NCBI GenBank assembly: GCA_903916595.1
Contig: CAIWXI010000055.1
Span: forward strand, 71,870 to 135,869
Direction: 5' to 3'
DNA length: 64,000 nt
Source: an uncultured Bacteroidales bacterium
GTDB taxonomy: Bacteria > Bacteroidota > Bacteroidia > Bacteroidales > FEN-979
This document shows, piece after piece, positions 3,409-64,000 of this stretch (its first letter is position 1; each line of letters begins with the position of its first letter). A program made the translations under genes and the position numbers. The notes under the pieces were generated by a model. The model worked only from the letters and a program-made list of their open reading frames with translations. It was not told the DNA's origin and ran no database searches.

Positions 3409-4401
3409 TCATGATGTTACTATTTGCGCATAAATATCGGCAAATTTGTTTCCTATTGTTTGTGGATGAAAGCGTTTAATATTTTCAAAACCATTATTGA
3501 TCAGCTTCAAGCGTAATGCTTCGCCGGATATCAGCTGAATAACAGCCTGCCTGATTTCTTCGGTGTTTTCTGCATCGATAATCAGTGCTGCATCGCCGGC
3601 TACTTCGGGAAGGGATGTATTATTGCCGGCAATGACCGGCCGGCCGATGGCATTGGCCTCCAGTATTGGCAACCCGAATCCCTCATACAGGGAGGCGAAC
3701 AGGACAATATCAGCTTTTCGGTATTGATCAAGCACTTCTGAGTAGGGCAGGTTGAAATGATTTTCCCAGGTGATGTTGTGCTGTTTAAGCAAAGCCAGAT
3801 GCTCATCGGTGAGCTTTCCGATGATGATCAGCGTAACATCAAGTCGTTCCAAAGCAGGGATCACCCGGTGCAGGTTCTTGTTCGGGGTTGTCCCGATTTG
3901 TAGTATAACCGGTTTCGATGCATTGAATTTCCTGGGTGAAGGAATTATATCGGGCGAGATGCAGTCGTGTACAACCAGGATCTTTGAAGAGTCAATACCG
4001 GTTTTTTCGATGAGATCTTTCTTGATAAATTCGGAAATCACAGTGATATAACGGACCCTCCTTGCAGGAAGTGTAAACCAGAAAAATTTAAGGACAGCTA
4101 TGCGTAGCCGACCTCCCGATGAAAGAATCCTGAGATCATGAATAGTAAGAATGGTTTTATATTTTTTCATCAGGATGGCGATATAATGTACATCTCCGGT
4201 GATGTGATTTACTTCTCCCTGATGCCGGGCCGCGTCGATGGTATTATAAACTCTTTTCCACAGCCCGGTGCTGTTCTCCTTCATTACATAACGCTGGGGA
4301 GTAACACGTCCGGGCAAGGCAGAAATGATAGTATCAAACAGCTCTTCAATACTGTGGTGCCAGGGGGCATTGGCTTTGCGGAAAAAAAAGACAGTTTGCA
4401 T
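3409..4401 (-). CDS. GT4-family glycosyltransferase (group 1)
   Basis: The 330-residue protein is a GT-B glycosyltransferase. The donor-side half contains [20 protein letters not shown] and the conserved [17 protein letters not shown] block, which has the two glutamates of the EX7E signature. It is the first gene of the polysaccharide cluster on the minus strand and ends one base before the next glycosyltransferase. The two GT4 genes share this fold but differ clearly in sequence, so they probably form different linkages. Only 75 bases lie between its start and the end of the receiver gene upstream, with no clear promoter of its own, so transcription could continue from the receiver gene. Confidence 0.9.
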
Positions 4402-55992: not shown

Positions 55993-56535
55993 TTAAACGC
56001 CGTGGATCAGTCCGGGATGAGCCCTGCAGTTGTTACATAAACCCCGGTCTTTCTGGTCTATATCTTCCACGTATGTGCTGGAGCGCATCACACAGACAGG
56101 TGTTGTACAATGGATTAATCCAAAAGTGTGACCCAGCTCGTGAATCACTTCTTTTGTAAACCGCTCAAGAAGCAGCTTGTCGTCGGGCTCTATGCCATAC
56201 CGCTCGTTACTTAAACGATAGAGCGAGGCAATCCCGGTTTGTCCGTTTAAAAATGCCTGCCCGAAAATATAGGTAAGAATGGGGATGAAAAGATCGACGC
56301 TGAATAATCCTATGGTTTTCAAAGCTGTTTCATTGGAGATCGCATTAACGGCGGTTAAGAGTTTGTTCCCGTTATACTGTCTCCTTGAGGCGTCGAAAAA
56401 TTCGTTCAGGTCAAGATGTGATTCTTTTACGATGACAGGATAAGTATATTCCCGTGTTACTGCCTGAGCTATTTCCTCAAGAAAATGTTTCCCTAAATAC
56501 CCAAAAGAAATCAAGGTGATATTTTGTTGAGTCAT
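55993..56535 (-). CDS. amzA: Archaemetzincin-type zinc metalloprotease
   Basis: The 180-residue protein contains the archaemetzincin core HELGHTFGLIHCTTPVCVMRS, that is HExxHxxGxxH with the added Cys pair, and a second CxxC in RGLCNNCRAHPGL. This fits the family pattern with a catalytic zinc held by three His and a structural zinc held by four Cys. No signal peptide is visible, so it is probably cytoplasmic. The family is of aminopeptidase or unknown physiological role. It lies 42 bases after the sigma-54 activator on the same strand and is the last gene of the redox operon. Confidence 0.93.
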   Translation of the reverse strand: MTQQNITLISFGYLGKHFLEEIAQAVTREYTYPVIVKESHLDLNEFFDASRRQYNGNKLLTAVNAISNETALKTIGLFSVDLFIPILTYIFGQAFLNGQTGIASLYRLSNERYGIEPDDKLLLERFTKEVIHELGHTFGLIHCTTPVCVMRSSTYVEDIDQKDRGLCNNCRAHPGLIHGV

Positions 56536-56577: not shown

Positions 56578-57918
56578 TTATTCATCGGGCTTTAAATCGT
56601 ATTTTTTGATCTTGTTGTACAGGGTCACCCTGTCGACTTTCAATGCCTTTGCCGTGCGGGTGATGTTCCAGCTGTATTTGTTCAGGATCTGCCGTATGAA
56701 GGACTTTTCGAAATCATCAAGGCTTTCGATGGAATTATCGATCATGTCTTTTCCAAAAGGCAGGTCTTTCAGAGTGATTTTTTTCCCGTTTCCAATCACG
56801 ATAGCCCGTTCGATCATGTTTTCAAGTTCGCGTATATTCCCCGGGAAGGGGTATTCCCCAAGACGTTGCATAGCCGCATCATCGATGGTGATATGCGGCT
56901 TGTTCATGGTTGTACAGTATTTTTTAATAAAATAATCGACCAGCAACGGGATGTCTTCAACCCGCTCCCGGAGTGGTGGTATGCTAATATTCACAACATT
57001 CAGCCGATAGTAAAGATCTTCTCTGAAGATACCCTGTTCAACCATGCTTTTAAGATCCCGGTTGGTAGCGCAGATGACCCTGAAATCAGAAGATGTTTCT
57101 TTGTTACCGCCAACCCTCACGAATGTTTTTGTTTCCAGAACGCGCAGCAGTTCAATCTGCATTTTGGAAGATATTGTTGCGATCTCATCAAGAAAAATCG
57201 TTCCGCTGTCGGCCATCTCGAACCGGCCTTTACGGTTATACATGGCCCCTGTAAAAGCTCCCTTCTCATGTCCGAACAGCTCGCTTTCAAGAAGGCTTTC
57301 GGTGAGGGCCCCGCAATGTACGCTCACAAGCGGATAATATTTTCGGGAGGAATTGGCATGAATAGCCCGGGCAATTAATTCTTTTCCAGTTCCGCTTTCA
57401 CCGGTAATAATAACCGAAGAGTTACTTTGTGCCACGCTCTCGACCTGCTTCAGCACCTTTTTCATGGCTTCACTGTTCCCGATCAGGTCTTCTACATTAT
57501 CAAGTGAGCTTACTTTGTTTTTGAGTGTTTCGTTTTCCTGCGATAGCTCGATCTGTTTTGAGGCATTCCTGATCAGATGCGAAAGGTCATCGGGATCAAA
57601 AGGTTTTGTAACATAATCATAAGCCCCGTCTTTTAAGGCCATCACAGCCGTATTTACACTGGCAAAGGCCGTCATCACAATAACAATGGCATCCTGCTTT
57701 AAGGCTTTAATGCGCCTGAGCATTTCCAGCCCATCCATGCCCGGCATTTTAATATCGGCAAGGATGATGTCATACTGAGAGGACTCTATCAGTTGCAATG
57801 CTTTCCTGGCATTTTCAGCAACTTCCACCTGGTAGCCGTCTTCCACGAACCAGTTATTTAAAGAATCCCTTACCGATTCTTCATCGTCAACGATTAATAT
57901 TGATATCTTTCTGGCCAT
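56578..57918 (-). CDS. NtrC-family sigma-54-dependent response regulator
   Basis: The 446-residue protein has a receiver (1-120; phospho-acceptor Asp55 in IILADIKMPGMDG), a sigma-54 AAA+ domain (about 140-370; Walker A GESGTGKE, the sigma-54 contact loop GAFTGA, GTIFLDEI) and a Fis-type helix-turn-helix (about 400-446; NITRTAKALKVDRVTLYNKIKKY). It should activate sigma-54 promoters when phosphorylated by the kinase encoded 12 bases upstream. I could not find a clear -24/-12 site in the operon gaps, so its targets may lie outside this window or upstream of 64000. Confidence 0.95.
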   Translation of the reverse strand: MARKISILIVDDEESVRDSLNNWFVEDGYQVEVAENARKALQLIESSQYDIILADIKMPGMDGLEMLRRIKALKQDAIVIVMTAFASVNTAVMALKDGAYDYVTKPFDPDDLSHLIRNASKQIELSQENETLKNKVSSLDNVEDLIGNSEAMKKVLKQVESVAQSNSSVIITGESGTGKELIARAIHANSSRKYYPLVSVHCGALTESLLESELFGHEKGAFTGAMYNRKGRFEMADSGTIFLDEIATISSKMQIELLRVLETKTFVRVGGNKETSSDFRVICATNRDLKSMVEQGIFREDLYYRLNVVNISIPPLRERVEDIPLLVDYFIKKYCTTMNKPHITIDDAAMQRLGEYPFPGNIRELENMIERAIVIGNGKKITLKDLPFGKDMIDNSIESLDDFEKSFIRQILNKYSWNITRTAKALKVDRVTLYNKIKKYDLKPDE

Positions 57919-57930
57919 TCTGTGGTCTTC

Positions 57931-59583
57931 TTAATTTTTAATCAAAGGGAGTGTTATGGAGAACGTTGTACCTTGCGCTGGTTCAGATTTTACCTGTATC
58001 TTCCCGTTGTGGCTCTGCATGATGCCATGCACAATCGCAAGCCCCAGACCGATCCCGCTGGCGTTATGCTTGGTAGAGAAAAACGGTTCGAAAATATGGG
58101 GGATGTCATCCACCGATATTCCGATACCGTTATCAACTATTTCAAATCGTACAGTTTCTTCGTTTGGATTTAGTGTGCGGATAATGATCTCCCCGTTCTC
58201 ATTCAATGATTCACTGGCATTCACGAGCATGGCCACGCAGGCTTGTTTGATCTGGTTAGGACTGCAATAGATGAGATCGGAAGTGGCCGTAAAATCAGAA
58301 TAAAAATTAATGTTTGCAATTTTAATAGGATGGCTCATTAATTCATAGGTCTCCTGTAGTATTTCGTGAAGATGCCTGGGCTCAAAATCCTCCTGGTCTT
58401 TTTTCGAGAACTCAAGCAGGCCTTTTACAATCTCACCGCAACGTTTCGCCTCACTCTCTATAAGCTTTAAATGTTTCAGCATGGAATCGCGCTTGCTGGC
58501 ATATAATTCCGGATTACTCAACTGCTTGTAGATAAGCTTGGTATAGATGAGAATGCCAGATAGGGGATTATTAATTTCGTGTGCAACCGAGGATGACAGC
58601 TTCCCAAGAGAAGCGAGGCGCTCAATATGAATCAGTTCATTTTGTGCGGAGCTTAGCTCTTCTGATTTTTTCTGGACCTTATATTCCAGCTGCTGTGACC
58701 AGTTCTCCAATTCATTTGTAGCGGCCTGCAGATTATCGAGCATGTCGTTAAATGCCTTCGAAACCATCTTCATGTCGTCGAGCTGATTGGGCATGATCTC
58801 TACGCGTGTACTTTTATCCCCGTTGGCTACGGCAATACTGGCTTTAACCAGGGCATTCAGGGGTTTTTTGATCCGCTGCCGGGTAAAGAAAATCAGAAAT
58901 CCAACCAGAAAAAGAGTTGTTAATATGGCCAGCAGAAAAAATTCGGTTGAAGATTTCTGCACGGCGGCATCAAGTTCCGAAAGAGGGATCTTGATGATGA
59001 GGGAGCCGAGGATCTCATCGCTGGCTTTATGTGCATGACAGGAGCTTTGGTAGCAGGATTTCTCGTTAAGGATAGGTAACTTGATCAGCAGATGCCGGCC
59101 TTGGTTATCGTTATGGTTCATCTTGCAATCGCTTCCAACGTCGATGATCTTGTAATGCTTCCCCTTACTCGGAAACATGGCTTTAAGGTTGCTATGGCAG
59201 CTGAGACAATTCGGGTTGCTGTGATTGTTCGTTGTGTCGGAAGGGATTGAGGAATAAACCAGATTATCCTGACTGTCGTACATGTTAACCTCATCGATAC
59301 CCGGCATGGTATTGATGATGTCGAGGGTATTCTGCAAAGTGCTTTTATCGTTCTCGAGCATGGAATGATACAATGATCCGCCAACAATGGAACCGATATT
59401 GTTTCCATTCTGACGGATCACGGTATTGAGGTATTCCTCATTAACGGAACGAAAAATGATACTGAATGAAACGAACAGAAAAACGGAGGACGCAAAGATG
59501 ATAAGCACAACCCGGCTATAGATAGAAGAACGGAATCTTAAGTACTTCCTGAATATTGACTTTCCTTTGCTATCCGTATTCAT
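57931..59583 (-). CDS. Membrane sensor kinase with c-type haem motifs
   Basis: The 550-residue protein (ATG at 59583; a TTG 27 bases further out is less likely) has membrane helices at about 24-46 and 213-235 around an extracytoplasmic domain. This domain contains CLSCH (Cys126-His130) and a CX4CH (Cys177-His183) motif plus other His/Cys, so covalent haem is likely. HAMP, a coiled coil, HisKA with His335 in SVAHEINNPLSG and HATPase (DNGIGISVDDIPHI, GIGLGLAIV) follow, as in NtrB/ZraS kinases. It would read the redox state or a gas through haem and phosphorylate the sigma-54 regulator next door. It follows the small GcvH-like gene by 46 bases. Confidence 0.92.
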   Translation of the reverse strand: MNTDSKGKSIFRKYLRFRSSIYSRVVLIIFASSVFLFVSFSIIFRSVNEEYLNTVIRQNGNNIGSIVGGSLYHSMLENDKSTLQNTLDIINTMPGIDEVNMYDSQDNLVYSSIPSDTTNNHSNPNCLSCHSNLKAMFPSKGKHYKIIDVGSDCKMNHNDNQGRHLLIKLPILNEKSCYQSSCHAHKASDEILGSLIIKIPLSELDAAVQKSSTEFFLLAILTTLFLVGFLIFFTRQRIKKPLNALVKASIAVANGDKSTRVEIMPNQLDDMKMVSKAFNDMLDNLQAATNELENWSQQLEYKVQKKSEELSSAQNELIHIERLASLGKLSSSVAHEINNPLSGILIYTKLIYKQLSNPELYASKRDSMLKHLKLIESEAKRCGEIVKGLLEFSKKDQEDFEPRHLHEILQETYELMSHPIKIANINFYSDFTATSDLIYCSPNQIKQACVAMLVNASESLNENGEIIIRTLNPNEETVRFEIVDNGIGISVDDIPHIFEPFFSTKHNASGIGLGLAIVHGIMQSHNGKIQVKSEPAQGTTFSITLPLIKN

Positions 59584-59629
59584 TGGTTTATTTTCACTGC
59601 AATATACCAAAAAACGGCGATATGACGTA

Positions 59630-60343
59630 CTATGGATTTAAAAATTCCTTCTGGAAATCATGCCATACCCCCTCGGGCAATTCTGGAAGTACATGATCTC
59701 TTAGCTCGCCACCGTCCTGCAAAGCGACCATGGAGGCTTCATCTGAGTATTTGGGCATCGCTGAAGCGAGGAAATCCTTAAACCGCAGCAGTTCCATCTG
59801 GGACCAGTCGCTCGCGGCATCAGCAATATAATACGAGCTTGTTTCGGCTTTCCAGTTAGTCGGTTTTATTTTATACAGCCAGCCCGATTCAAACGGATCC
59901 TCGTTTAATATTTCGGGATTGTCGGTAAGGGCAGGGTTTGCACCAACCACATTTCCTGAAATCGGAGAAAACAGTTTCAGCAGTCTCCCATCATGATCAA
60001 TTTCGGTCATCGCTTCACCTTTGGCAATGAGTTCACCCGGCTTTTTCAGGAAATTCACGCTGACTTCACCTGTTATATGAAGCATCAGATCATCAAGCCC
60101 TACATTGGCAAGACCCGATTTTGAAAGGTGAGCCCAGGTATGGTTTTCGCTGTAGTATACTCCCTGGGGGACTTTTAAAATTTTACTGCTAAGAATACCC
60201 ATTGCCTTCTGAAGCTGTCGTTTAATTTTCACTTTCCTGTTCAGAACAACAGAGAAAGGAATAAGAAGAGCCAGGAATGCGATGATGATTAAATATTCCA
60301 TTCCTTTTGTTTCAAAAATGTTGTAATAACTGAATCCGTCCAT
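59630..60343 (-). CDS. Membrane-anchored GcvH-like protein
   Basis: The 237-residue protein has one N-terminal helix (YLIIIAFLALLIPFSVVL) followed by basic residues, so its bulk is cytoplasmic. Residues 60-175 align with GcvH (NHTWAHLS, VGLDDLMLHITGEV, FSPISGNVVGANPAL, ILNEDPFESGWLYKI). The lipoylation motif is absent: the turn reads IDHDGRLLKLFSP, with Gly119 or His117 where Lys is expected. The C-terminal 60 residues (LRFKDFLASAMPKYS, LQDGGELRDHVLP, GVWHDFQKEFLNP) are shared with the larger protein at 62543-64000. It lies between nrfD and the kinase. A structural or electron-transfer scaffold role is guessed, not glycine cleavage. Confidence 0.85.
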   Translation of the reverse strand: MDGFSYYNIFETKGMEYLIIIAFLALLIPFSVVLNRKVKIKRQLQKAMGILSSKILKVPQGVYYSENHTWAHLSKSGLANVGLDDLMLHITGEVSVNFLKKPGELIAKGEAMTEIDHDGRLLKLFSPISGNVVGANPALTDNPEILNEDPFESGWLYKIKPTNWKAETSSYYIADAASDWSQMELLRFKDFLASAMPKYSDEASMVALQDGGELRDHVLPELPEGVWHDFQKEFLNP

Positions 60344-60352
60344 AACTTTAAT

Positions 60353-60422
60353 ATTTACGATTTACGATTTACGATTTACGATTTCTATTATCTGCCATCT
60401 GTTATCTGTTATCTGTTATCCG
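60353..60422. repeat. Heptamer-period tandem repeat, ten in-phase units in two word types
   Basis: Four ATTTACG words, one ATTTCTA, then TTATCTG, CCATCTG, TTATCTG, TTATCTG, TTATCCG, all in the same 7-base phase. The tract starts 9 bases after the GcvH-like gene start on the plus strand and runs past the NrfD stop codon (60409-60411) into its last codons. It is the longest of three period-7 tracts in the window. Confidence 0.85.
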
Positions 60423-61638
60423 ATGATGCCCAGGAGGGTGAATCGCGCAGCACAGGCATACGGTTGATGACCCACCTGAAAATCCATATTTCAGTAAAGA
60501 TTACTGTAAGCGTTACAACCACTTCCATCCAGGAAGGAACGTAATGTATTGCGGCATCCCATCTGAAGCCGATCACCGTTACATTGAGCCGGTTAAGGAT
60601 TACCCCGAGCATGGTCAGAATAGCGGCTACGCGTATCATTAAAATGTTGTTCCGCCTGTAGCTGTAGTAAAAGAGTATCATGGGCAGCAAGACAAAGCCA
60701 AACATTTCAAGCAGATACCAGTATCCCATGGGAGTATTAAGCAGGTCCCAGTGTTTTTCATGAATAAAAACCAGAAGCTGCAGAAAAAAATATGCAAACA
60801 TAGTTCCGGCGCAGATTTTTGATAAACCCGGGATGATTTTGTTCCCGGCCCGGTGATCTTTGTCGCTGATCTGTGATGAGAATACTTTATGCGTAATGGA
60901 GCCTTCGAAGATGACCATTGAAAGACCGGCGAAGACACTGGAGACGAAAAACATGATCGGGATAAATTCAGAGTACCAGAGTGGGTGAATCTTTTCTTTG
61001 GCCATCAGATAGAGGGCTCCAAGTCCTGACTGGTGCAGGGTTGACAGGGTGATCCCGAAGATCACGGCCGCGATGGTCATTCCCGATAATATTTTATGGA
61101 TACGCCGGGCGCCAAGCCATTCAGCGATGGCAGGAGAGAATTCGATCAGTTGGGCTACCATATACAGCAGGAAATGCCAGGCTACAAGGAAGAGGACCGA
61201 GTTCACCCCGAAGTTGTTACCTATAATGGGGTTGATCACATTCCATGGCCTGCCCAGGTCAAGCAACAGGGCCCCGGCATAAAAAACGTATGCGAGAAAA
61301 CCGTTCAAAACCGTCACCCTTACAATAGAATGGTACTTTTTCATATTCAGGATATACACCATGAACGTGACTACATAAGCGCCCCCGGCAAAAGCAACAC
61401 CGGTAACCACGTCAAAACCGATCCACAGCCCCCAGGGGACTTCCTGGGTGAGGTTGGTAATGGCTCCTATGCCTTTCCAGAAGCGGATGACGATGAGAAC
61501 CAGTCCTAAAATAATTATCGGGACTGAGATAATATTGAATGGGGTGAAGATCTTTCCTTTGGGTTTCAGTTCACTCAGCAGAAACTTCCAGATGGATTTG
61601 CCATCATGATCGGTTACGGATGTATAGGTCGGGTTCAT
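60409..61638 (-). CDS. NrfD/HybB-family integral membrane subunit
   Basis: The 409-residue protein has about ten membrane helices, an NrfD/HybB pattern: EVPWGLWIGFDVVTGVAFAGGAYVV in the second helix pair, LLLDLGRPWNV in the fourth, and SSVFAGLSMVIFEGS in the sixth. HybB- and NrfD-type subunits carry electrons between quinones and an iron-sulfur partner without haem. It overlaps the iron-sulfur gene by four bases (ATGA), so the two products form one complex. No catalytic molybdopterin or hydrogenase subunit is found in the window. The final codons lie in the heptamer repeat. Confidence 0.92.
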   Translation of the reverse strand: MNPTYTSVTDHDGKSIWKFLLSELKPKGKIFTPFNIISVPIIILGLVLIVIRFWKGIGAITNLTQEVPWGLWIGFDVVTGVAFAGGAYVVTFMVYILNMKKYHSIVRVTVLNGFLAYVFYAGALLLDLGRPWNVINPIIGNNFGVNSVLFLVAWHFLLYMVAQLIEFSPAIAEWLGARRIHKILSGMTIAAVIFGITLSTLHQSGLGALYLMAKEKIHPLWYSEFIPIMFFVSSVFAGLSMVIFEGSITHKVFSSQISDKDHRAGNKIIPGLSKICAGTMFAYFFLQLLVFIHEKHWDLLNTPMGYWYLLEMFGFVLLPMILFYYSYRRNNILMIRVAAILTMLGVILNRLNVTVIGFRWDAAIHYVPSWMEVVVTLTVIFTEIWIFRWVINRMPVLRDSPSWASSDNR

Positions 61639-62498
61639 GATTTATCCTCCTCATTCTTAGTGTTATTTTTCGTTGCCTGATAGATTCCGGAAAGCAGTGC
61701 GGGAAACAGTACAAATATAGTTGGCACACTATAGAGAAATCCTTTAGTCAAAGCGGGATAAGAAGCTTTCTGAAGGTTGGTTTTCATACCCAGTTCCTTG
61801 AAGTTCACGGGAGAAAGATACAGCCAGCATGTGCCTCCGGCTTCATCTTCTCCATACAGGTAATCGACATACAGCTTTGGATTTTCAACAATCCTTTTTC
61901 TGGCTTCGCTGATGAGCTGCCGCCGGGTGCCATAAAGCAGGGCCTCATTCGGACAATTTGCAGCACAGGCAGGCATCTCGCCTGTTTTAAGTCGTTCATA
62001 GCACATATCGCATTTCTGTATCTTCGGATTAGGACTGTGGTATTCGAACTTTGGGATATCGAACGGACAGGATATCATACAGTAACGGCATCCCATGCAT
62101 TTATCACTCCTCCAGATCACTGGCCCTGCTTTTGTTTTATGCATGGCCTGGGTGAGACAGGCTGCCACACAGGCAGGCTGACTACAATGCATGCACTGCA
62201 TTTTTATGAACACCTTGCCTTTGGAAGTGTTGTATTGGTTGACAACAGTACGTTTCGTTTCACTTGTTTGTCGAACAAGAGGTAAGTCCTTCGCAGGATC
62301 GGGTGGCGGCAGCCCGTTGGCATCGGCACAGTCGTATTCACAGCCATGGCAACCTTTGCAGCGGGCTGAGTCATATAATACTCCGCGGAAATCTATTTCA
62401 GTATTGCTGTTTGGCGCCGCTTTCAGGTCCCGGCCTACTGCAAGGGCCGCTCCGGTTACGCCCAGTACTTTCAAAAACCCTCGTCGATTGATCGTCAT
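61635..62498 (-). CDS. Tat-exported four-cluster ferredoxin-like iron-sulfur protein (HybA/DmsB type)
   Basis: The 287-residue protein starts with a Tat signal (NRRGFLKVLGVTGAALAVG). Four Cys sets follow: CKGCHGCEYDC, CMHCSQPACVAAC, CMGCRYCMISC, and CDMC with CAANC, together 16 cysteines for four 4Fe-4S clusters. A C-terminal hydrophobic helix (FLYSVPTIFVLFPALLSGIY) would anchor it on the outer face of the inner membrane. This is the HybA/HmcB group. It would pass electrons to or from the NrfD subunit, whose gene overlaps it by four bases. It lies 44 bases after the PBP-GcvH gene. Confidence 0.95.
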   Translation of the reverse strand: MTINRRGFLKVLGVTGAALAVGRDLKAAPNSNTEIDFRGVLYDSARCKGCHGCEYDCADANGLPPPDPAKDLPLVRQTSETKRTVVNQYNTSKGKVFIKMQCMHCSQPACVAACLTQAMHKTKAGPVIWRSDKCMGCRYCMISCPFDIPKFEYHSPNPKIQKCDMCYERLKTGEMPACAANCPNEALLYGTRRQLISEARKRIVENPKLYVDYLYGEDEAGGTCWLYLSPVNFKELGMKTNLQKASYPALTKGFLYSVPTIFVLFPALLSGIYQATKNNTKNEEDKS

Positions 62499-62542: not shown

Positions 62543-64000
62543 CTATCTTACAGTATTGATGAATCTGGTCTGAAAATCTTCCCAGACTTCAGGACCGAAG
62601 TCGGCAAGGATATTGTCTTTCAGAACACCGCCATCCTGGAGGATAATCTGGGCATACTTTGGTGAATCCACCTGCATGACAAATGCAAGAAAATCCTTCA
62701 GCCGGGTAAATTCACCATGTAACCATGTCCTGTACTGATCGGCCATAGAGAGGAAAGAAGTTTCCCTCAGCCAGTTACTTGGCTCGATGCTGCATATCCA
62801 CCCCTCGGTGTATGGAGAGTCGTTGATTATGGATGAATTGGCTGACAGTGCAGGATTCTGTTCCCTTACAATTCCTGAAACGGGGGAATGTATAATCAAA
62901 TGCTTGCCTTTTTGAATAAGAATGCAAAGCTGATCACCTTTGTTGATCCTTACTCCCGGGCTTTTCATACCGATACTGGTGATGGGACCAGTCACATGCT
63001 GCAGAAAATCATCAATACCAACTTTTACTGTACCATCCTGTTCCATGAAAGCCCAGGTATGAGTCTTATCATAGTACAACCCTTTTGGAATAACCACATT
63101 TTTTTCGTCAAATACAGGTGACTGTCCGGGAAGAATATCACTTTGGTGTGTTTTCCTGTTTCTATATCTTATGAAGATCAGGTCGAGAGTGAAGCCTAAA
63201 GCAACAACAATGACCAGTAGCAGTAAAACAAGTTTTGCAATAGAATTGGTTTCTGTAGGTAATTCGGGATAAATAGTGGTTGTGATAAGCTTATTCATCT
63301 GAGACTGACGCTCACTGCTCACCAGGTCGGAATACCCGTTTGCAGGAAGAGATTCCTGCCCCGAGGAAAGAACCCACTGCAGGAAAGCTACTTCAGTTTC
63401 ATTGGTCGGTCGAGTTTTAGCAATACAGAAAAGGTTATTGGTCAAGGCTTTCGGATATTTTCCAATCCATACTCCCCTTGAAAAATTTGCAAAATCACCA
63501 TAGATATTCTCCATGTAATCCAACTTTCCATTGCCGTTCTTGTCGATAGGCAATAAACGGATATTCTCTAAAAAACTTTCTTTGTTTGGCTGAAGGATGT
63601 CGGTCATCCTGCAAAAACCAATGGCATAGGGATCATTCTGGATGAATGAGATCAGGCTCTCTTTGGTTTCACCTTTTATTCCGGCCATTGAAGCCTGGCT
63701 GGCATTCATAAATCCGGCTATTCCCGTTTTTGTGTAATTATCATTTAAAATATAATACTTCACAGGAGCAGTCAGGCCGTTATTGAGCAGCGTTCCCCAT
63801 TGCATCTTGCCGGGAGTTTCCAGACTCCTGGCTAGAGCTTCACGCGAAATACCTTTCTGGTATATTTCAGCGAGAAAAGGGTTTTTGGAACTGATCACGG
63901 GCACAAAAATTTCCCGGCCAATAACTACCTGGAAAACCGATCTCTGTTTTTCTGAAGTTGGAAATTCGTTGGAGATAAAACAGAGATTTTCCCCTTTACT
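62543..64000 (-). CDS. PBP-like/GcvH-like fusion protein (partial, 5' end outside window)
   Basis: The frame is open through the right edge, and the first visible codons read NLCFISNEFPTSEKQRS, so the 5' end lies outside. A GTG at 63904 is probably internal. From N to C: a PstS-like substrate-binding region (IFVPVISSKNPFL, ESLISFIQNDPYAIGFCRM) that should be extracytoplasmic, one membrane helix (LVLLLLVIVVALGFTLDLIF), a cytoplasmic GcvH-like domain (KTHTWAFMEQDGTVKVGIDD, IHSPVSGIVREQNPAL), and a C-terminal module (LKDFLAFVMQ, ILQDGGVLKDN, VWEDFQTRFINTV) shared with the 237-residue protein. The GcvH turn reads IQKGKHLIIHSP: the ESVKA lipoylation motif is missing, though lysines lie next to the expected position. 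A PBP-GcvH fusion is unfamiliar to me. Confidence 0.85.
   Translation of the reverse strand, partial: SKGENLCFISNEFPTSEKQRSVFQVVIGREIFVPVISSKNPFLAEIYQKGISREALARSLETPGKMQWGTLLNNGLTAPVKYYILNDNYTKTGIAGFMNASQASMAGIKGETKESLISFIQNDPYAIGFCRMTDILQPNKESFLENIRLLPIDKNGNGKLDYMENIYGDFANFSRGVWIGKYPKALTNNLFCIAKTRPTNETEVAFLQWVLSSGQESLPANGYSDLVSSERQSQMNKLITTTIYPELPTETNSIAKLVLLLLVIVVALGFTLDLIFIRYRNRKTHQSDILPGQSPVFDEKNVVIPKGLYYDKTHTWAFMEQDGTVKVGIDDFLQHVTGPITSIGMKSPGVRINKGDQLCILIQKGKHLIIHSPVSGIVREQNPALSANSSIINDSPYTEGWICSIEPSNWLRETSFLSMADQYRTWLHGEFTRLKDFLAFVMQVDSPKYAQIILQDGGVLKDNILADFGPEVWEDFQTRFINTVR

Follow-up and report, generated by a model that had tools for sequence, protein, structure and literature searches.

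The described proteins closest to the one considered here, SHORT, are GcvH (PF01597), with which it has the fold and a sequence core in common, and LbpA of the Hdr-like sulfur pathway, which is likewise a GcvH-like protein outside glycine cleavage and has a strictly conserved lysine and adjoining hdr-like genes (PMC6067878). SHORT is unlike GcvH in having no lipoyl lysine, a transmembrane (TM) anchor, a C-terminal extension and other neighbours. Because the lysine is missing and the scores lie under the curated GcvH cut-offs (79.2 vs 117 bits, NF002270; 67.9 vs 115.85, TIGR00527), SHORT is not a member of GcvH. A role as a glycine-cleavage component was rejected, since the same genome encodes, on another contig, an ordinary GcvH that has its lysine. 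SHORT is not LbpA either; it has no conserved lysine, and no hdr-like or lipoate-ligase genes were found among the identified genes beside it in the window (the whole stretch of 64,000 nucleotides that was analysed, from an uncultured Bacteroidales bacterium).

The two genes preceding SHORT match HybA and HybB of E. coli hydrogenase 2 and HmcB and HmcC of Desulfovibrio. Pairs of this type are known in Hmc, [FeFe]-hydrogenase and octahaem modules (PMC10924467), and residues R89, Y99, E148 and H184 of E. coli HybB have been shown to matter (PMC8076601). Scores against the NCBIfam models were below the equivalog cut-offs (HmcC, 401.6 vs 550 bits; HmcB, 319.5 vs 420). HmcA, HmcE and HmcF were absent from the cluster genes in the window, no hydrogenase was seen, and the cluster is not Hmc (compare PMC10924467). 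The literature searched, which took in few of the subscription journals, held no GcvH-like part of a HybA/HybB or HmcB/HmcC complex and no published description of the cluster. The periplasmic domain of LONG, the first protein of the cluster, has a fold like that of PstS phosphate-binding proteins but is TM-tethered to a GcvH-like domain and contains a conserved EF-hand-like loop. The cluster kinase has a periplasmic CxxCH, as do sensor kinases with sCache_heme/DUF3365 haem-c sensor domains (PMC12889525), but it has a second motif, Cx4CHxH, and no DUF3365 Pfam match, and the likeness is by analogy only.

The GcvH-like domain of SHORT

SHORT and its parts map to the window as follows.

59630..60343, minus strand: SHORT (TM segment, lysine-less GcvH-like domain and C-terminal extension), 237 aa, ATG start, intact ORF
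60200..60319, minus strand: residues 9-48, N-terminal helix with a single TM segment (helical in the model; charge pattern)
59849..60175, minus strand: residues 57-165, GcvH-like domain (Pfam, profile alignment, overlay)
59987..59989, minus strand: codon of Gly119, the lipoyl-lysine position of GcvH, at the hairpin tip (alignments, model)
59633..59848, minus strand: residues 166-237, conserved helical C-terminal extension with a GG pair (model, alignments)

A GcvH fold had been recognised in an earlier, sequence-only reading of this DNA, and was confirmed. PF01597 (GCV_H) matched residues 62-168 (Pfam, E = 1.1e-22), the AlphaFold model had a mean pLDDT of 86 (about 95 within the GcvH-like domain), and the solved-structure comparison, listed for residues 57-184, gave an overlay on pea H-protein with a Z of 18.4 and an rmsd of 1.6 Å over 130 residues. 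The N-terminal TM helix and C-terminal extension reported in the same reading were also found. Residues 9-48 are helical in the model, and five Lys or Arg occur in the 15 residues that follow; by the positive-inside rule, SHORT is predicted to be N-out/C-in, and its GcvH-like domain is therefore predicted to be cytoplasmic. The extension, about residues 166-237, is mostly helical in the model over its roughly 70 residues and is common to SHORT and LONG, with W, E, R, D, F, Q and GG positions invariant. In the wider alignment, whose 67 rows include some LONG domains, the GG pair is present in 67/67 rows and mean column conservation was 0.60 for the extension vs 0.49 for the hairpin tip, so that what stays constant in this family is the extension and not the hairpin. 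Conservation at the tip (mostly Gly-Lys) could mean a function for the turn itself. An NCBIfam search with the TM segment and the extension returned no match to either, and an HmcD-like peptide was rejected on that result as the identity of the TM segment. Short direct repeats (ATTTACG and TTATCTG units) were noted between SHORT and the HybB-like gene at window positions 60355-60420.

His117 or Gly119 had been proposed as the expected position of the lysine. A profile of 67 homologues was aligned with solved GcvH chains (1e-25), gapless through the hairpin, and placed the lipoyl lysine (Lys63 in pea; Lys65 in E. coli, counted with Met1) on Gly119; in the AlphaFold model, strands 111-117 and 120-125 flank a D118-G119 turn. 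The equivalence was drawn from the gapless alignment and the position of the turn, the overlay giving ranges only. Gly119 was retained on these grounds and His117 was ruled out. Column 119 contains Gly in 72, Asp in 4, Asn in 3 and Ser in 2 of the 81 Bacteroidales copies of SHORT, and Lys in 0/81. In the wider alignment, 66 of 67 rows have a residue other than Lys; the exception, the distant homologue L059, has a near relative with Ser (L060). Lys123, named beforehand as a residue that might occupy the lipoylation turn, lies four residues past it and is Lys in 38 of 81 Bacteroidales copies; it was ruled out as the lipoyl site by its position and its lack of conservation. In the alignment of homologues, a check suggested by the sequence-only reading, the lipoyl lysine is thus missing from essentially all copies, for practical purposes throughout. 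Since the overlay was obtained with no Lys at 119, the fold was retained after the cofactor site had been lost.

Residue 120 is Lys in 72 of 81 SHORT copies, and Lys445 of LONG is kept in 84 of 84. These residues are what would support a register-shifted or other acylation, with Lys120 beside the turn bearing lipoate or another group. The residue is Arg in the window protein, however, is not Lys in 9 of 81 copies, and stands one off from the lipoyl position, and lipoyl-domain ligases require the lysine exactly at the hairpin tip. Such a modification is very improbable, and SHORT probably carries no acyl group in the cell. The intact fold and sensor-type gene context would also suit a cytoplasmic sensor with a small, non-covalently bound ligand in the groove where GcvH shelters its lipoyl arm, but nothing in the analysis points to a ligand, and we regard this as improbable. 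Loss of the defining residue might otherwise mark SHORT as a decaying, functionless GcvH copy. Decay is contradicted by the conservation of length, extension and synteny in 80 loci, the separate lysine-bearing GcvH of the genome also counts against it, and it was given almost no weight. Reuse of the fold had been put forward as well: lysine loss, membrane anchoring and the distinction from glycine cleavage proteins held across more than 80 homologues, and a scaffold role would be their most economical reading.

The gene cluster and its distribution

SHORT lies in a cluster transcribed from one strand in the order LONG, HybA-like, HybB-like, SHORT, histidine kinase, σ54 regulator and archaemetzincin, and neighbouring genes are no more than 65 nt apart. 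This context, with its LONG paralogue, HybA/HybB linkage, kinase and regulator and its relatives in other classes, had not been seen in the sequence-only reading. The genes other than SHORT are listed below.

62543..64000 in the window (contig C55:134412-136106), minus strand: LONG, 564 aa, first 237 nt beyond the window
61635..62498, minus strand: HybA/HmcB-like Tat-exported ferredoxin, 16 cluster cysteines, C-terminal TM
60409..61638, minus strand: HybB/HmcC-like NrfD-family membrane subunit, 409 aa, 10 predicted TM segments
57931..59610, minus strand: sensor histidine kinase, 2 TM, periplasmic CxxCH and Cx4CHxH, HAMP
56578..57918, minus strand: NtrC-type sigma-54-dependent response regulator
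55993..56535, minus strand: archaemetzincin-type metalloprotease (HELGHTFGLIH), last gene of the cluster

LONG consists of a signal peptide, the PstS-like periplasmic domain, a TM helix and a second lysine-less GcvH-like domain. The PstS-like domain gave a profile match of 1.6e-8 and a fold match with a Z of 22.5 and an rmsd of 4.4 Å over 269 residues; the GcvH-like domain gave a Z of 20.0 at 1.5 Å, and its lysine position is Gly444 in 84/84 copies. The EF-hand-like loop, DxNxNGxxDxxE, occupies residues 232-243 (L008) within the PstS-like domain, with key positions kept in 81-85 of 85 copies. The HybA-like protein has all 16 cysteines for four [4Fe-4S] clusters, a Tat signal and the C-terminal TM. 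In the HybB-like protein the equivalents of E. coli R89, Y99, E148 and H184 are kept as R107, Y117, E166 and H202, and those of E133 and E268 are replaced in Bacteroidales and kept or similar in more distant clusters. No catalytic subunit was found in any locus inspected.

One genome per species was scanned and the best 80 of 282 relatives were kept. The record titles of these best 80 named Bacteroidota groups, apart from a single Chlorobiota label and a single 'uncultured bacterium'; the isolates Sunxiuqinia dokdonensis and S. indica were among them. HybB lay directly before SHORT in 80/80 loci of this set, and LONG and the kinase were each found in 73/80, many of the exceptions being contig ends. 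Full-length SHORT and HybB occurred in the same 12 of 41 genomes; a thirteenth (G024) had fragments of SHORT and HybA at contig ends. The kinase and archaemetzincin occurred together in 20 of the 41, all with LONG, and in G001, G003, G005, G007, G019 and G029 LONG lay directly before the kinase, the HybA-HybB-SHORT cassette being absent as a block. From these co-occurrences and absences, SHORT goes with HybA/HybB and LONG with the kinase. SHORT is genetically linked to HybA/HybB, a linkage that can reflect co-regulation alone. A 21st genome (G018) had a truncated LONG (L049:8267-9979) with the promoter and with neither kinase nor archaemetzincin, probably a remnant of the cluster. The archaemetzincin was the constant final cluster gene, in Bacteroidales and beyond.

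In other classes of the phylum, most loci read contained a TM-GcvH beside HybA and HybB, a second GcvH-like protein, a CxxCH kinase, a regulator and archaemetzincin. The second GcvH-like protein had a head of the form C-x-W-x3-[GS]-x3-[YF]-x-L-C-x5-C-x2-C in 10 of 11 cases (L148-L155, L157, L159), and the motif suggests a possible metal or FeS site formed by its four cysteines. Cys-headed 'GcvH' proteins occur in Deltaproteobacteria. A plasmid search with the Cys-rich protein as query gave matches to at most half of the query, and the annotated ones among the 20 matches listed were GcvH. In the tree, the SHORT and LONG domains are sisters (support 98/97) and adjoin the TM-GcvH group. A single duplication is likely, after which one copy gained the PstS-like domain and the other took the slot after HybB. 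A GcvH domain that keeps its Lys (ESSKS) was seen fused to a Cys-containing N-terminal domain (L009:9053-10018, contig C166), which resembles small neighbouring DGC-like ORFs. In one distant cluster, a gene for a c554-type cytochrome with four CxxCH motifs (L157:11833-12330) is flanked by the second GcvH-like gene and the kinase.

These genes could belong to an ordinary respiratory module, in which electrons would move through HybA/HybB between menaquinone and some periplasmic enzyme or cytochrome whose gene lies elsewhere, SHORT would only stabilise the complex, and the kinase and regulator would merely control expression. The retained N-side residues of HybB, the HybA/HybB-type pairs of the Hmc, [FeFe]-hydrogenase and octahaem modules (PMC10924467) and the cytochrome gene of the one distant cluster are consistent with this, but the loci contain no partner enzyme, and the two GcvH-like domains, as well as LONG and the kinase where HybA/HybB are absent, are left unexplained. 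We consider this reading unlikely.

Promoter and kinase

Upstream of LONG, a conserved σ54-type element, TGGCAY-N5-TTGA, was found in 60 of 64 loci, mostly at 48-108 nt, vs 0.38 expected from mononucleotide shuffles. Of the 64 loci, 42 also have palindromes of the form TGTTKA-N5-TMAACA, vs 0.07 expected; in most cases these lie some 93 and 182 nt further upstream. The search with TTGC as the -12 element gave almost nothing, and was dropped for the conserved TTGA. The elements in the genome of the window are located as follows.

Contig C55:136146-136340 (L008 about 4147-4341), beyond the window: sigma-54-type element TTTGGCAC-N5-TTGA and two palindromes TGTTGA-N5-TCAACA, upstream of LONG

Eleven of the 41 genomes have a single copy of the strict combined pattern, which in 10 of them is at LONG; the match away from LONG (G006, L175), near a RadC-like gene, was taken as chance. 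Five exact palindromes elsewhere in the genome of the window had no σ54 element close by, and a wider regulon was ruled out on that account. The palindromes are probably bound by the cluster's own regulator.

CxxCH is present in 93 of 94 kinases and Cx4CHxH in 94 of 94, and from these motifs the kinase is a putative haem protein. By sequence, its sensor region has no solved relative; a weak match to Mcp40H-20 was obtained (E 0.048). A redox-sensing relay would make the kinase the electron acceptor: HybB/HybA would move menaquinol electrons to its periplasmic haem-type domain, hence no enzyme, and the GcvH-like domains would bring the kinase, the redox module and the PstS-like domain together in a signalling complex controlling its own sigma-54 promoter. 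The lack of a catalytic subunit and the near-invariant kinase motifs argue for such a relay, as does the sigma-54 element with palindromes, whose strict combination is almost confined to the region upstream of the cluster. However, genomes without HybA/HybB/SHORT still have the kinase, LONG and the regulator, so another input would be needed, haem binding by the kinase is putative, and the cytochrome c554-type gene product of the distant cluster could be the acceptor instead. The relay is accordingly held to be doubtful.

Proposed role of SHORT

We favour, with moderate confidence, a reading in which SHORT is a lipoate-free, membrane-tethered accessory docking subunit of the HybA-HybB menaquinol/iron-sulfur module; it would probably pair with the GcvH-like domain of LONG and link the module to LONG, the kinase and the regulator. 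Its one N-terminal helix would keep SHORT on the cytoplasmic side of the membrane, where its GcvH fold would serve as a docking surface for HybA/HybB, and the GcvH-like domain of LONG would be the docking surface for the kinase side. The two domains are sisters, which by itself is no proof of pairing; as a pair they would join the HybA/HybB module to the unit of LONG, haem-type kinase and sigma-54 regulator. Physical contact of SHORT with HybA/HybB and with LONG would be part of this arrangement. The lack of an enzyme subunit in the loci speaks for a sensing role, while HybA/HybB cannot be the sole input to the kinase, since the kinase persists without them. More speculative, and rather to be doubted, is the full picture of a transmembrane redox-signalling complex not described before. 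Its HybA/HybB quinone module would feed the haem-type kinase, and its two GcvH domains, both lipoate-free and one of them joined to a periplasmic PstS-like domain, would act as matched cytoplasmic couplings.

Proteins with a GcvH fold are usually labelled as parts of the glycine cleavage system or as carriers of lipoate. Here a broad range of relatives has abandoned the cofactor site but retains the fold, along with a membrane anchor, a new extension and an accompanying quinone-reactive FeS/NrfD pair. The cluster is a conserved, self-contained redox/sensor unit with a σ54-type promoter, widespread in environmental Bacteroidota, and the analysis gives its genes a testable role.
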